DNA of 34,748 nucleotides from Thermoanaerobaculaceae bacterium. GTDB taxonomy: Bacteria; Acidobacteriota; Thermoanaerobaculia; Thermoanaerobaculales; Thermoanaerobaculaceae. How positions within the stretch are numbered: position 1 is the first letter of the stretch; each line of letters begins with the position of its first letter. The stretch lies in NCBI GenBank assembly GCA_013388425.1, contig JACADV010000027.1, forward strand, positions 1 through 34,748, read 5' to 3'. Positions 24,035 through 28,062 of this stretch are shown piece after piece. The translations under genes and the position numbers were made by a program. The notes beneath the pieces are model-generated. The model had not been told where the DNA came from and made no database searches. It saw only the letters and a list, made by a program, of their open reading frames with translations.

Positions 24035-24928
24035 ATGCGATACGCTCTGACCGTTGCCCTGGCCGTGACGCTGGTGGCGGGGACCGTCTCGGGCCGCGAG
24101 CTCACCTGGGTGTACGTGGTCCCGGCGGCGGCCAACACCACCGGCCTCAACGGCACCGACTGGCATACCGATCTCACCCTCTACAACCCCCACACCACCA
24201 CCCTGCCAGTGGTGCTGCAGTTCCTCCCCTCGGGGCGGGACAACCGTAGTGGCGTGCCCACCGTGGAGCTGGAGCTGGCCCCCTGGGAAACCTTGAACCT
24301 CTGGGACGTGCTGGGTCCGCACGGCTTCGCTGCACGCGGCAAGACCGGCGCGCTCCTCGTCTACGCCGACGACGACCGCGTCTCCTGCAGCGGGTCGAGC
24401 TGTGATTTTGCGGTGTTTTCCCGCACCTATACGCTCAATCCCTCGGGCGGCAGCGGCGAGTTCGGCCAGGGCATCGCCGGTTTCCCCGCCTCCCTGGGGC
24501 TGGATCGCAGCGTCATCGCCTACCTGCCGCAACTCACCGACGACAGCTCCTTCCGGACCAACCTGGGGGTGGCGTCGTGGACGGCAGCAGCGGTGACGGT
24601 GCGCGTGGAGCTGCAGGATCGCTCTGGGCACATCCTCGACCGGCGCGACCACGTGGTGCCGCCCTACGGGCACATCCAGTGGCGGGTGGAGCACGGGGTG
24701 GCGGGTGGCACGGCTGCGGTGTACATCGTGGCGGGGCCGGACGACGCCATGGTCTACCCGTACGCTTCGGTGGTGAACTGGGTCACCGGCGACCCCGCCT
24801 ACGTGGAGGCCCACCTCACCACCGTGGGTCTCACTGCCCAGACAGCCCTGGGGCGCTCGCCGCGGCAGCGCCCACCGGCCCTACCCGTACCGACCTTCTC
24901 CCGCGCCCTGCTGGCCCAGAACCGCTAG
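24035..24928 (+). CDS. Secreted protein of unknown function (VPAAA-type)
   Basis: 297 residues with signal peptide MRYALTVALAVTLVAGTVSG. The mature protein starts LTWVYVVPAAANTTGLNGTDWHTDLTLYNP, a pattern of secreted Acidobacteria/Thermoanaerobaculia proteins made of beta-sandwich units. Two units seem present: residues about 22-135 and about 148-270 (SVIAYLPQLTDDSSFRTNLGVAS...VTVRVELQDRSGHILDRRDHV). Both share the 'T(N/D)LxxxN/S... L.F/L.. G' layout. The pair of Cys in SCSGSSC (about 118-124) may form a disulfide. Possibly a surface or adhesion protein; no enzyme motif is seen. Ribosome site GGAGGTGG; it is divergent from the membrane protein gene at 23898. Confidence 0.7.
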   Translation: MRYALTVALAVTLVAGTVSGRELTWVYVVPAAANTTGLNGTDWHTDLTLYNPHTTTLPVVLQFLPSGRDNRSGVPTVELELAPWETLNLWDVLGPHGFAARGKTGALLVYADDDRVSCSGSSCDFAVFSRTYTLNPSGGSGEFGQGIAGFPASLGLDRSVIAYLPQLTDDSSFRTNLGVASWTAAAVTVRVELQDRSGHILDRRDHVVPPYGHIQWRVEHGVAGGTAAVYIVAGPDDAMVYPYASVVNWVTGDPAYVEAHLTTVGLTAQTALGRSPRQRPPALPVPTFSRALLAQNR

Positions 24929-24967
24929 GAGCAGGCCGCACTCTCGTCCCACCGCGGCAAGCCCTGC

Positions 24968-24973
24968 TAGAAT
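24968..24973 (+). promoter_or_regulatory. -10-like TGCTAGAAT before the GTPase-kinase fusion gene
   Basis: Extended -10 TGC + TAGAAT, nine bases before the ATG at 24983; no -35 or ribosome site is visible. The transcript would carry only about two or three bases before the start codon. Confidence 0.48.
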
Positions 24974-24982
24974 GGCCGCGGC

Positions 24983-27139
24983 ATGGTACAGTTCGATAAC
25001 CAGTACAAGCAGGTCAAGCTCAAGGTCGTCTACTACGGCCCAGCGCTGGGCGGCAAGACCACGTGCCTGAAGTACATCCACCGCGTCACGGACCCTACGC
25101 GGCGCACCAAGCTCTACGCCCTCAACACCGCCTCCGACCGCACCCTCTTCTTCGACCTCCTGGGCATCGACTTGGGGCGGGTGCGCGGCTACCGGTTGAT
25201 GCTGCAGCTGTTCACCGTCCCCGGCCAGGTGCAGTACAACGCCACCCGCCGGGCGGTGCTGGCCGGTGCGGACGGGGTGCTGTTCGTGGCCGACTCGCAG
25301 AGCTCGCAGCAGACCGCCAACGAGCAGAGCCTGGCCAACCTGGCCGAGAACTTGAAGGCCAACGGCCTGGATGCCGCCACCATCCCGCTGGTGTTCGCCT
25401 ACAACAAGCGGGATCTGCCCGAAGCCATGGACTGCGCCACCCTCAACGCGTCCCTCAACCGGCGGGGGGTCCCCTGGTTTGCCACGGTGGCCACCACCGG
25501 CGAGGGGGTCATGGAGTCGTTCGCGGCCATTGCCGAGGCCACCGTCCGGTCGGTGGGCGACCGCCTCGGGCTGGCAGCCCAGCCGGAGGCAATGGAGCGG
25601 CTCCTGGTGGGGGTGCGCGCGGCGCTGCAACCGTTCTTGGGTCCCCCTCCTAGCGCCGAGAGCGAGGTGGTGATCCGCCCCAAGGCCACAGCGGAAACGC
25701 TCTCCGCCGAGGAGCTGGTGTCGGAGGCGGTGCGGGCCAACCTGAGCATGACCGACCTCAACGCCAAGCTGGATCAGCTCGGCCAGGAACTGGCGCGGCG
25801 GATTCGGCAGCTGCGGGCAATCAACGAGTTTGGTCGCCTCATGTCGGGCGCCCGCCAGAGCCGTCAGGTGACCTCGGGCTTTCTGGATGCCCTGTTGCGG
25901 GAGCTGGGGGTGAGCTGCGGCTCGCTCCTGCTGGAGCGCAACGGCACCCTCGAGGAGGTGGAGCGGCGCGGTCTGGCGGAGGACCCCTTCGCGAGACCCC
26001 AGGCGGACGGGCGGTCGCCGGTGGCTGCGGTGGTGGAGAGCCAGCAGCCGTTCGTGGTGTTCGTGGACGAGACAGGGCCGATCACCTCGCGCCTGACCGA
26101 GGAGCTGCTGGGACTGGGGCTGGTGGCGGGGTTGTCGGTGCCGCTGGTGGCCCAGGGGCGGGTGCTGGGCGTGGCCACCGCCTACGGCGATGCCGCACGC
26201 GGCGCCTTCAGCGACGACGACCGGGATCTGGCCATGGGGCTGGCGGCCAACGCGGCAGTGGCCCTCGCCCACCTGCGGGCCCTCGGCGCGCTGGAGGAGG
26301 CCAACCGCACCCTGGAAGCGACGGTGGCGGCCCGCACCCGCGAGCTGGAGCTGGCCCTCACCCAGCAGAAGGTTCTGACTGAGCAGTTGGAGGCGCGGCG
26401 GCAGGAGCTCGAGGCGGCCAACGCCCGCCTGGGAGAACTGGAGGCGCTCAAGGGAGAGCTCCTCTCGTACGTGGCCTCTGCCTTCGAGGAGCCGGTGCGG
26501 TCCATCCAGACCGCTGCCCGCGTCCTGATGCGCGAGGAAGGCGTGTCCGAGAAGGCGACCAAGCTCCTCGAAGTGGTCCACGCCGAGGTGACCCGTCTGG
26601 CCGACCTCATCGTCTCCACCCGCCAAGCCACCGTTCTCAGTGCAGCGGAGGGCGGCTCCGTGACGGAGGTGGCGGTTGCCGACCTGATGAAGCGGGCCCT
26701 CTCGCCGCTGCGGAGCGCCATCGGGGAGCGCAAGCTCTCGGTCCACGTCAAGGTGGCGCAGGGGCTGGAGCGGCTCCTGGCGCGGGCGGAGCAGCTGGAA
26801 GTGGCGCTGCGGGCGGTGCTGCGCAACGCCGTGGAGTACAACACCCCGGGCGGCAGCGTCACGGTCATCGTCCAGCCCACGCAGCGGGACGGCAAGGCGT
26901 TTACCGAAATCCAGGTGACGGACACGGGCCAGGGGATACCCGCCGAGGACATCCCCAAGGCTCGGGAGCGCTTCTGGCGGGGGGCTGCCGGCGAGGCGGC
27001 CGCCCACGGCTTGGGGTTGGGGCTGACGGTGGCGAGTCGCGTGGCCGAGGCGCACCAGGGGACGCTGGAGATCCGTTCGGAACCTGGCCGCGGCACCACC
27101 GTCTCCATCCTCCTCCCGGCGCGGTCCACCCCCGCCTGA
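24983..27139 (+). CDS. MglA-type GTPase / GAF / histidine-kinase-like fusion protein
   Basis: 718 residues, cytosolic. (1) About 1-195: Ras-like GTPase of the MglA family, with P-loop GPALGGKT (19-26), SDRTLFFDLLGIDLG (51-65), FTVPGQVQYNATRR (77-90), VLFVADSQ and NKRDLP (141-146). (2) About 245-432: helical linker and GAF domain (CGSLLLERN...AGLSVPLVAQGRVLGVATAYG...FSDDDRDLAMGLAANAAVALA). (3) 434-490: coiled coil. (4) 486-550: dimerisation-like helix where the expected phospho-acceptor His is Ser499 (ASAFEEP in place of SHELRTP). (5) 560-718: HATPase with Asn615, DTGQG (647-651), GLGLGL (676-681). GTPase motifs and ATPase motifs look complete; phosphotransfer by the standard His does not. MglA-type GTPases set polarity in gliding bacteria; a role in signalling is inference. 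Near-leaderless start. Confidence 0.88.
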   Translation: MVQFDNQYKQVKLKVVYYGPALGGKTTCLKYIHRVTDPTRRTKLYALNTASDRTLFFDLLGIDLGRVRGYRLMLQLFTVPGQVQYNATRRAVLAGADGVLFVADSQSSQQTANEQSLANLAENLKANGLDAATIPLVFAYNKRDLPEAMDCATLNASLNRRGVPWFATVATTGEGVMESFAAIAEATVRSVGDRLGLAAQPEAMERLLVGVRAALQPFLGPPPSAESEVVIRPKATAETLSAEELVSEAVRANLSMTDLNAKLDQLGQELARRIRQLRAINEFGRLMSGARQSRQVTSGFLDALLRELGVSCGSLLLERNGTLEEVERRGLAEDPFARPQADGRSPVAAVVESQQPFVVFVDETGPITSRLTEELLGLGLVAGLSVPLVAQGRVLGVATAYGDAARGAFSDDDRDLAMGLAANAAVALAHLRALGALEEANRTLEATVAARTRELELALTQQKVLTEQLEARRQELEAANARLGELEALKGELLSYVASAFEEPVRSIQTAARVLMREEGVSEKATKLLEVVHAEVTRLADLIVSTRQATVLSAAEGGSVTEVAVADLMKRALSPLRSAIGERKLSVHVKVAQGLERLLARAEQLEVALRAVLRNAVEYNTPGGSVTVIVQPTQRDGKAFTEIQVTDTGQGIPAEDIPKARERFWRGAAGEAAAHGLGLGLTVASRVAEAHQGTLEIRSEPGRGTTVSILLPARSTPA

Positions 27140-27165
27140 GCGGCCCACCAGCGCGTCGGTTGGGC

Positions 27166-27171
27166 TAGACT
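27166..27171 (+). promoter_or_regulatory. -10-like TAGACT before the ATP-grasp gene
   Basis: TAGACT, nine bases before the ATG at 27181, no ribosome site. Same spacing as at the preceding gene. Confidence 0.42.
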
Positions 27172-27180
27172 GGCGTGTCC

Positions 27181-28062
27181 ATGGCGCGCCTGGCGGTCCT
27201 CACCTCCAAGCCCGATCTTCCCCTCTACCGGGAGCTCCAGGCAGCCGCTCGCGCCGCGGGGCATCGCCTGAGCGTCCTTAACGGCCTCGACCTGGTGGCC
27301 ATGGCCACCCCCCCCAGCGTGTGGGACTCCCGGCGGAATGCGCCAGTGCGCGGGATCGCGGCCCTCCTCCCCCGCGTGGGCAACTGGCGCCCCGATTCGG
27401 TGCTGGCCGTCTTGGCTGCCTTCGAAGCCTCGGGCGTGCCCGTCCTCAACCGCCCCGCGCCCATCCGCCGCGGCCGCGACCACTGGCGCACGGTGGCAGC
27501 GCTGGCGGCGGCCGGGCTGCCCCACCCGGAGACGGTGGCCGGGGCCGAGCCGGAGGCGCTCGTACGCGCGGTGGAGGCGACCTTCGCGTACCCCTGCGTG
27601 GTGAAACAGCGCCGTTCGCGCATGGGCGTGGGCGTGATCCGCTGCGCCTCTCGGGCCGAGCTGGAGGCCGTGCTGGACTCCTGCTGGCGCCTGGGGGACG
27701 AGGTGATCGTGCAGCGCTTCTGCCCCCCCGGGGGGGTGAGCCGGCGGGTGGTGGTGCTGGACGGGGAAGCGCTGGGAGCCGCCGAACACCGGGCCGAGCC
27801 GGGGGAGTTCCGCGCCAACGCGGCCCGCGGCGCCGGCGTGGTGGGGGTGGAGCTGGACCAGGCCCAGGCGGATCTGGCCGTGGCGGCGGCAGCGGTGGTG
27901 GGCCTCGACTTTGCGGGTATCGACCTCATCCCCGACGGCGAGGGGTGGGTGGTGGGCGAGGTCAACCCCACCCCGGGCTGGAAACACTTTGCGGCCGCCA
28001 CCGGTCTCCCCGTGGCGGAGCGGGTGGTGGAGGCGCTGCTCCGCCGGGCCGAACCGTGGTGA
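27181..28062 (+). CDS. ATP-grasp ligase, RimK-like
   Basis: 293 residues. N-terminal Rossmann-like part (MARLAVLTSKPDLPLYRELQAAARAAGH, LLPRVGNWRPDSVLAVLAAFEASGVPVLN), then ATP-grasp domain: YPCVVKQRRSRMGVGVI, EVIVQRFCPP, VVVLDGEALGAAEHR and metal site GLDFAGIDLIPDGEGWVVGEVNPTPGW. This arrangement matches RimK/LysX/MptN-type enzymes that add an amino acid to a carboxylate, but the substrate (a protein tail, an amino-acid carrier, a cofactor) is not deducible. A GTG at 27175 is possible but would leave only three bases after TAGACT; the ATG at 27181 is preferred. The stop overlaps the methyltransferase start (GTGA). Confidence 0.82.
   Translation: MARLAVLTSKPDLPLYRELQAAARAAGHRLSVLNGLDLVAMATPPSVWDSRRNAPVRGIAALLPRVGNWRPDSVLAVLAAFEASGVPVLNRPAPIRRGRDHWRTVAALAAAGLPHPETVAGAEPEALVRAVEATFAYPCVVKQRRSRMGVGVIRCASRAELEAVLDSCWRLGDEVIVQRFCPPGGVSRRVVVLDGEALGAAEHRAEPGEFRANAARGAGVVGVELDQAQADLAVAAAAVVGLDFAGIDLIPDGEGWVVGEVNPTPGWKHFAAATGLPVAERVVEALLRRAEPW

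Follow-up and report, generated by a model that had tools for sequence, protein, structure and literature searches.

The window analyzed here, a contig of 34,748 nucleotides from a Thermoanaerobaculaceae bacterium (GenBank assembly GCA_013388425.1, contig JACADV010000027.1; Acidobacteriota), encodes a protein in which an MglA-type GTPase is joined to a GAF domain and a histidine kinase-like module, with a serine in place of the phospho-acceptor histidine. This raises the question of what such a chain could do in the absence of phosphotransfer on the usual residue, and whether the missing histidine belongs to the architecture or to this lineage.

The gene encodes 718 aa without a single internal stop (Table 1), and its start is considered correct because the N-terminal MVQFDNQ is kept in relatives. 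Besides GAF_2, Pfam identifies Arf/Ras models over the GTPase and HATPase_c at residues 603–714 (2.7e-23), and the match to HisKA is weak (17.7 bits at residues 490–543, against a cutoff of 26.9). Residues 8–187 match solved MglA structures at 1e-51 (phmmer), with Arg53, Thr78, and Gln82 in register with the MglA structures 6hjh and 6h17. The HATPase domain contains the N, G1, F, and G2 boxes of histidine kinases, and the residues N615, D647xG649xG651, and G676xG678xG680 are all intact. An AlphaFold model built with 27 relatives (mean pLDDT 81.6) consists of the GTPase, a helix (242–288), the GAF domain, an unbroken helix (411–517) leading into the DHp, a second helix (523–554), and the ATPase fold; as the pTM is only 0.37, the relative placement of the domains in this model is uninformative. 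A Foldseek search with the model returned MglA as top match (TM 0.89–0.93, target-normalized), followed by histidine kinases that include the pseudokinase DivL (4q20). The uninterrupted frame, the domain order, the complete Ras/MglA motifs and the complete HATPase, all noted in a preliminary description of the sequence, are therefore borne out. On the opposite strand, an open frame of 755 aa (24881–27148, −) runs across the whole fusion, and probably results from G+C-rich codon usage.

Table 1. Features of the fusion gene and its immediate surroundings (positions in the window).
Feature	Position	Strand	Remarks
Syntenic upstream gene	24035..24928	+	Conserved; no Pfam match
Gap, 54 bp	24929..24982		At the place of the relatives' REC-HisKA-HATPase gene
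MglA-type GTPase – linker helix – GAF – coiled coil – degenerate DHp – HATPase fusion	24983..27139	+	718 aa
MglA-type GTPase domain	24983..25567	+	Residues 1–195; phmmer to MglA structures, Foldseek
GTPase P-loop	25037-25060	+	
GTPase Arg53 codon	25139-25141	+	
GTPase Gln82 codon	25226-25228	+	
GTPase NKRD motif	25403-25414	+	
Conserved linker helix	25703..25852	+	Residues 241–290, motif L[LV]xxAVxxNxxMA; motif survey, AlphaFold model
GAF domain	25865..26266	+	Residues 295–428; Pfam GAF_2, 1.1e-13
Coiled coil	26267..26443	+	Residues 429–487; AlphaFold model, unbroken helix 411–517
Degenerate DHp/HisKA	26444..26650	+	Residues 488–556; sub-cutoff HisKA score
Ser499 codon	26477..26479	+	Position of the phospho-acceptor His of relatives; alignment
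HATPase (CA) domain	26783..27124	+	Residues 601–714; Pfam HATPase_c, motif residues kept
HATPase N615 codon	26825-26827	+	
HATPase DTGQG	26921-26935	+	
HATPase GLGLGL	27008-27025	+	
Gap, 35 bp	27140..27174		At the place of the relatives' receiver gene (with or without GAF-SpoIIE phosphatase)
Syntenic RimK-like ATP-grasp gene, downstream	27175..28062	+	Conserved

The GTPase domain resembles MglA of Myxococcus xanthus (PDB 5YMX, 6HJO) and Thermus (3T1O) in its fold and in the positions of the three residues mentioned above. In M. xanthus MglA, the Arg finger (Arg53) and Gln82 are required for GTP hydrolysis (PMC6876712). However, MglA itself is a separate polypeptide of about 195 aa that works with a roadblock partner, MglB, whereas here it forms the N-terminal domain of a much longer sensor. 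Proteins of more than 240 aa were excluded from the principal 2014 survey of Ras-like GTPases in prokaryotes, a limit that the fusion (718 aa) exceeds. The window is contig 8 of a genome that is 83% complete. No free-standing MglA was found in this genome, nor was a match to the roadblock family (Robl_LC7), of which the other 39 of the 40 genomes examined each encode at least one member; given the incomplete assembly, a real loss is uncertain. The same genome contains a second MglA fusion of 533 aa on contig 20 (L002:1501–3102), in which a long Ala/Pro-rich stretch and an unassigned C-terminus follow MglA, and which adjoins a gene for a Der-like GTPase.

The H-box region of the window protein reads YVASAFEEPVRSI. 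All 15 readable relatives from the same family carry the canonical H-box R[IV]AHE[LF]NTPVT[AS]I (AHELNTPV), and Ser499 aligns exactly with their acceptor His; the Glu at +1 is replaced by Ala500 and the Thr at +4 by Glu503. The alignment reveals no other acceptor His in the H-box region of the helix. A one-base sequencing error is excluded, because the flanking Glu and Thr are lost as well, and at least seven in-frame substitutions surround the H-box. The assignment of Ser499 to the expected His position, made from the sequence alone, is thus confirmed by the alignment and by the sub-cutoff HisKA score. Conservation of Ser499 across genomes had been proposed as a check; in the 15 readable relatives from the family, this position is occupied by His throughout. 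In the sister family, 3 of 15 fusions (G018, G023, and G026) have the His and 12 have Leu, Ala, Ser, Asn or Asp, while all of them retain N615, D647, G649, G651, G676, G678, and G680. As the readable family relatives all carry the His, its absence is, on these alignments, a derived loss that has occurred repeatedly, and not a defining trait of the architecture.

Full-length homologs (residues 1 to ~713, 55–60% identity) are present in 15 of 16 family relatives, the 16th being truncated by a contig end. The sister family has a full-length fusion in 15 of 20 genomes (42–46% identity), and a sample of 63 genomes from the rest of the class contained none. When 396 genomes were drawn evenly from the phylum, collinear fusions with 29–34% identity were found in ten further genomes of other families. 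Records of full-length homologs derive from Thermoanaerobaculum, Thermoanaerobaculales, and Sulfomarinibacter (Acidobacteriota), and no full-length copy was found in plasmid records. The gene order HAD, 20037, PutA, ComF, 23010, 24035, fusion, RimK-like is kept throughout the family and largely throughout the order. This conservation rules out that the fusion arose from an assembly join, a possibility raised in the preliminary description, as the same fusion occurs in the same gene order in many genomes. In the sister family, G027 (L153) encodes a shortened fusion of 534 aa that lacks the GAF domain and has a broken DHp, and the nearby G028, G029, G033, and G034 are without a full-length fusion, which would fit an ongoing loss of the gene in these genomes.

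The family relatives also carry receiver genes on both sides of the fusion. A REC-HisKA-HATPase gene is located upstream in 16 of 16, where it ends at most 5 bp from the fusion start or overlaps it by 10–13 bp, overlap being the usual arrangement. Downstream, a single-domain receiver gene is found in all 15 complete cases, directly adjacent in nine and behind a GAF-SpoIIE phosphatase gene in six. The window lacks both receiver-bearing neighbors, with the remaining gene order intact. The earlier remark that no response regulator or roadblock gene lies nearby therefore applies to the window, but not to the relatives, in which response-regulator genes flank the fusion. Relocation of the partner genes was considered, and a search of the window's own assembly identified only paralogs of both proteins with 31–34% identity; as this genome is 83% complete, absence elsewhere in the assembly is no proof. 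About 25 receiver domains as well as other kinases are encoded elsewhere in the genome, and these receivers could interact with the fusion. In two of the relatives, G001 (L122:7251–8393) and G003 (L124:7339–8496), the receiver of the upstream REC-HK gene is degenerate, with a weak HMM score and no evident acceptor Asp, and the kinase His is intact.

In the sister family, no receiver gene was found within up to 8 kb on either side (less at some contig ends) of the 12 full-length His-less fusions, and several of these have a DUF4388 gene close by instead; the His-bearing fusion of G026 is directly followed by a receiver gene. The window itself contains a DUF4388 (PATAN-like) gene at position 558–1376. 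Genes with PATAN domains have been reported near MglA/MglB genes in other genomes.

Among 46 fusions from across the phylum, 22 have both the His and a linked receiver, 20 have neither, four have the His only, and none has the receiver only. A naive Fisher test for this co-occurrence gives 2e-9. On the tree, the His changes at least five times and receiver linkage at least four times, resulting in 4–5 independent contrasts; the receiver changes together with the His in approximately two of these, is the same in the rest, and changes in the opposite direction in none. With so few and phylogenetically clumped contrasts the sign test is underpowered (p 0.5) and unable to reach significance. The fusions of G018 and G023, which have the His without a linked receiver, fit a sequence of events in which the receiver is lost first and the His later, and this hints that receiver loss came before His loss.

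The structural match to DivL of Caulobacter (4Q20) suggests one way in which a kinase module without its His could be used. DivL retains the fold of the histidine kinase module with a Tyr in place of the acceptor His, but it senses through PAS domains, lacks a GTPase, and both binds DivK in its phosphorylated form and regulates CckA. It binds ATP poorly. DivL is a histidine kinase repurposed as a sensor, which reads DivK~P without a His of its own (PMC4211667). By analogy, the dead DHp and CA domains of the fusion might serve as an input module that senses a phosphorylated receiver encoded elsewhere and relays its state to the GTPase, and many receivers are left in the genome. We consider this unlikely, as none of the His-less fusions examined has a linked receiver gene, opposite to what retained receiver reading predicts, and DHp helix 1, including the receiver-docking surface, is decaying.

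Top database matches of the fusion include MglA-GAF-HK proteins, MglA-PAS-pseudoHK proteins with or without a C-terminal REC domain (Holophagae, e.g., Geothrix), and shorter proteins in which the kinase half has decayed. The N-terminal MglA and the linker-helix motif are common to the fusion and the other Acidobacteriota proteins (Geothrix MglA-PAS-pseudoHK-REC, Acanthopleuribacter MglA-PAS-pseudoHK, and Vicinamibacteria short forms), but the latter have PAS rather than GAF, often have REC in the same chain, and show a different pattern of kinase decay. A helix motif resembling L[LV]xxAVxxNxxMA follows a variable linker in 80 of 105 fusion proteins, compared to 0.4 after shuffling. The motif marks a common connector between GTPase and sensor, and the helix may transmit the signal. 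The MglA-PAS-degenerate HK-REC proteins of Geothrix, including cultured species (L066, L083, L088, and other Holophagae loci), have an ATPase with a degenerate G2 box, and the His is present in most. The Vicinamibacteria-type short fusions (L080, L089, L091, L100, L105, and L113) comprise 503–545 aa, with C-termini that look like remnants of the DHp and ATPase domains; the C-terminus of L080, the only one of the six scanned, had no Pfam match. No description of fused MglA-kinase proteins was found in the freely available literature.

To locate the remaining constraint, we considered sites that do not vary among the His-bearing members of the order. Of these, the window protein retains 78 of 79 in its GTPase, all 10 in its linker helix, and 22 of 28 in its CA domain, but DHp helix 1 retains just 4 of 9. 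Identity to a reference clade is normal for the GTPase (75% in the window versus 76–79%) and the GAF domain (51% versus 50–55%), somewhat low for the ATPase (54% versus 55–68%), and low for DHp helix 1 (50% versus 75–85% in other lineages). No ATP-binding motif residue has been lost from the window protein or from any of the 12 full-length His-less proteins of the sister family, and this retention at a CA identity of ~45% points to selection on ATP binding. The decay of the DHp next to retained GTPase and ATP-binding residues suggests that phosphotransfer has been released from selection, and that these residues have not. With a remodelled ATP lid and changes at 6 of the 28 invariant CA sites, the window protein may have weakened ATP binding. 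It could be argued that the whole kinase half is on its way out and no longer relevant, leaving a GTPase with a GAF sensor. In line with such decay, DHp and CA have diverged faster in the window protein, the G027 fusion is shortened and genomes near it lack the full-length fusion, and the Vicinamibacteria-type fusions have no recognizable HATPase; nevertheless, the complete set of ATP-binding motif residues in the window and all 12 sister-family proteins makes this reading improbable.

A close parallel is provided by the actinobacterial conservons (AGPS; CvnA kinase, CvnB roadblock, CvnC, CvnD GTPase, and CvnF GAF protein), which have the same trio of MglA-family GTPase, GAF, and histidine kinase-like protein and no receiver protein. 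In conservons, however, these are separate proteins from a different phylum, with roadblock and CvnC partners and a HAMP membrane kinase, whereas here they are found in one chain encoded by a single gene, between the conserved upstream gene and the RimK-like gene. For conservons, it has been suggested that the GTPase acts as the output, since a receiver is absent (PMC4316618). The kinase CvnA8 is stimulated by the GAF protein and requires His183, the residue at which it is phosphorylated, for autophosphorylation (PMC13343842); this His is kept in CvnA8 and lost in the window fusion. The preliminary description stated that MglA GTPases and histidine kinases normally act as separate proteins: they are indeed encoded by separate genes in conservons, but their joint working is known there (PMC4316618; PMC13343842). 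The H183A mutation in CvnA8 significantly lowered ATP turnover (PMC13343842), which argues against the idea that the HATPase of the fusion is still a kinase in trans, acting on another protein or on a residue other than 499 (Ser/Thr/Asp, or the DHp of a partner kinase). The intact ATP-site motifs and the kinases and receiver domains left in the genome would allow for such activity, but the catalytic Glu after the His is Ala, the Thr at +4 is Glu, the linked receivers are gone and the DHp is the most decayed part, and we regard continued phosphorylation in trans as doubtful.

We favor, with a probability of roughly 0.55, a model in which an ancestral GTPase-kinase phosphorelay protein has become a phosphotransfer-dead, probably ATP-binding, GAF-regulated dimer that controls the MglA switch. 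The ancestor would have been a GTPase-histidine kinase fusion that belonged to a phosphorelay operon together with REC-HK and receiver protein genes. In the lineage of the window, both receiver-bearing neighbor genes were lost, and the DHp lost the acceptor His, the catalytic Glu, and the Thr. What remains is predicted to be a GAF-sensing dimer that would not autophosphorylate on the usual His and in which the HATPase probably still binds ATP, as judged by its motifs. The conformation of the kinase fold could be passed via the coiled coil and linker helix to the MglA domain, where it would most likely gate GTP loading or hydrolysis as the remaining output. The loss of both the His and the receiver genes suggests that the output role has passed to the switch. 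A GTPase/ATPase switch in one piece, already put forward in the preliminary description, is inferred from conservation and gene loss. More tentatively, a takeover of this kind may have occurred repeatedly in MglA-GAF-kinase fusions across the phylum: once linked receivers disappear, the His would decay, while the ATP and GTP sites stay under selection, the GTPase becomes the output, and an ATP-driven dimer regulates the Ras-like switch in cis.

If this is true, these proteins would be single-chain sensors in which an ATP-driven dimer of the kinase fold controls a Ras-like switch. The fusion represents a recent case of a two-component system that is without its receiver and phosphorylation site and has retained the ATP site. 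As a natural one-chain version that exists in His-bearing and His-less forms among related bacteria, it offers a test of the control of a Ras-like GTPase by the histidine kinase fold without phosphotransfer.
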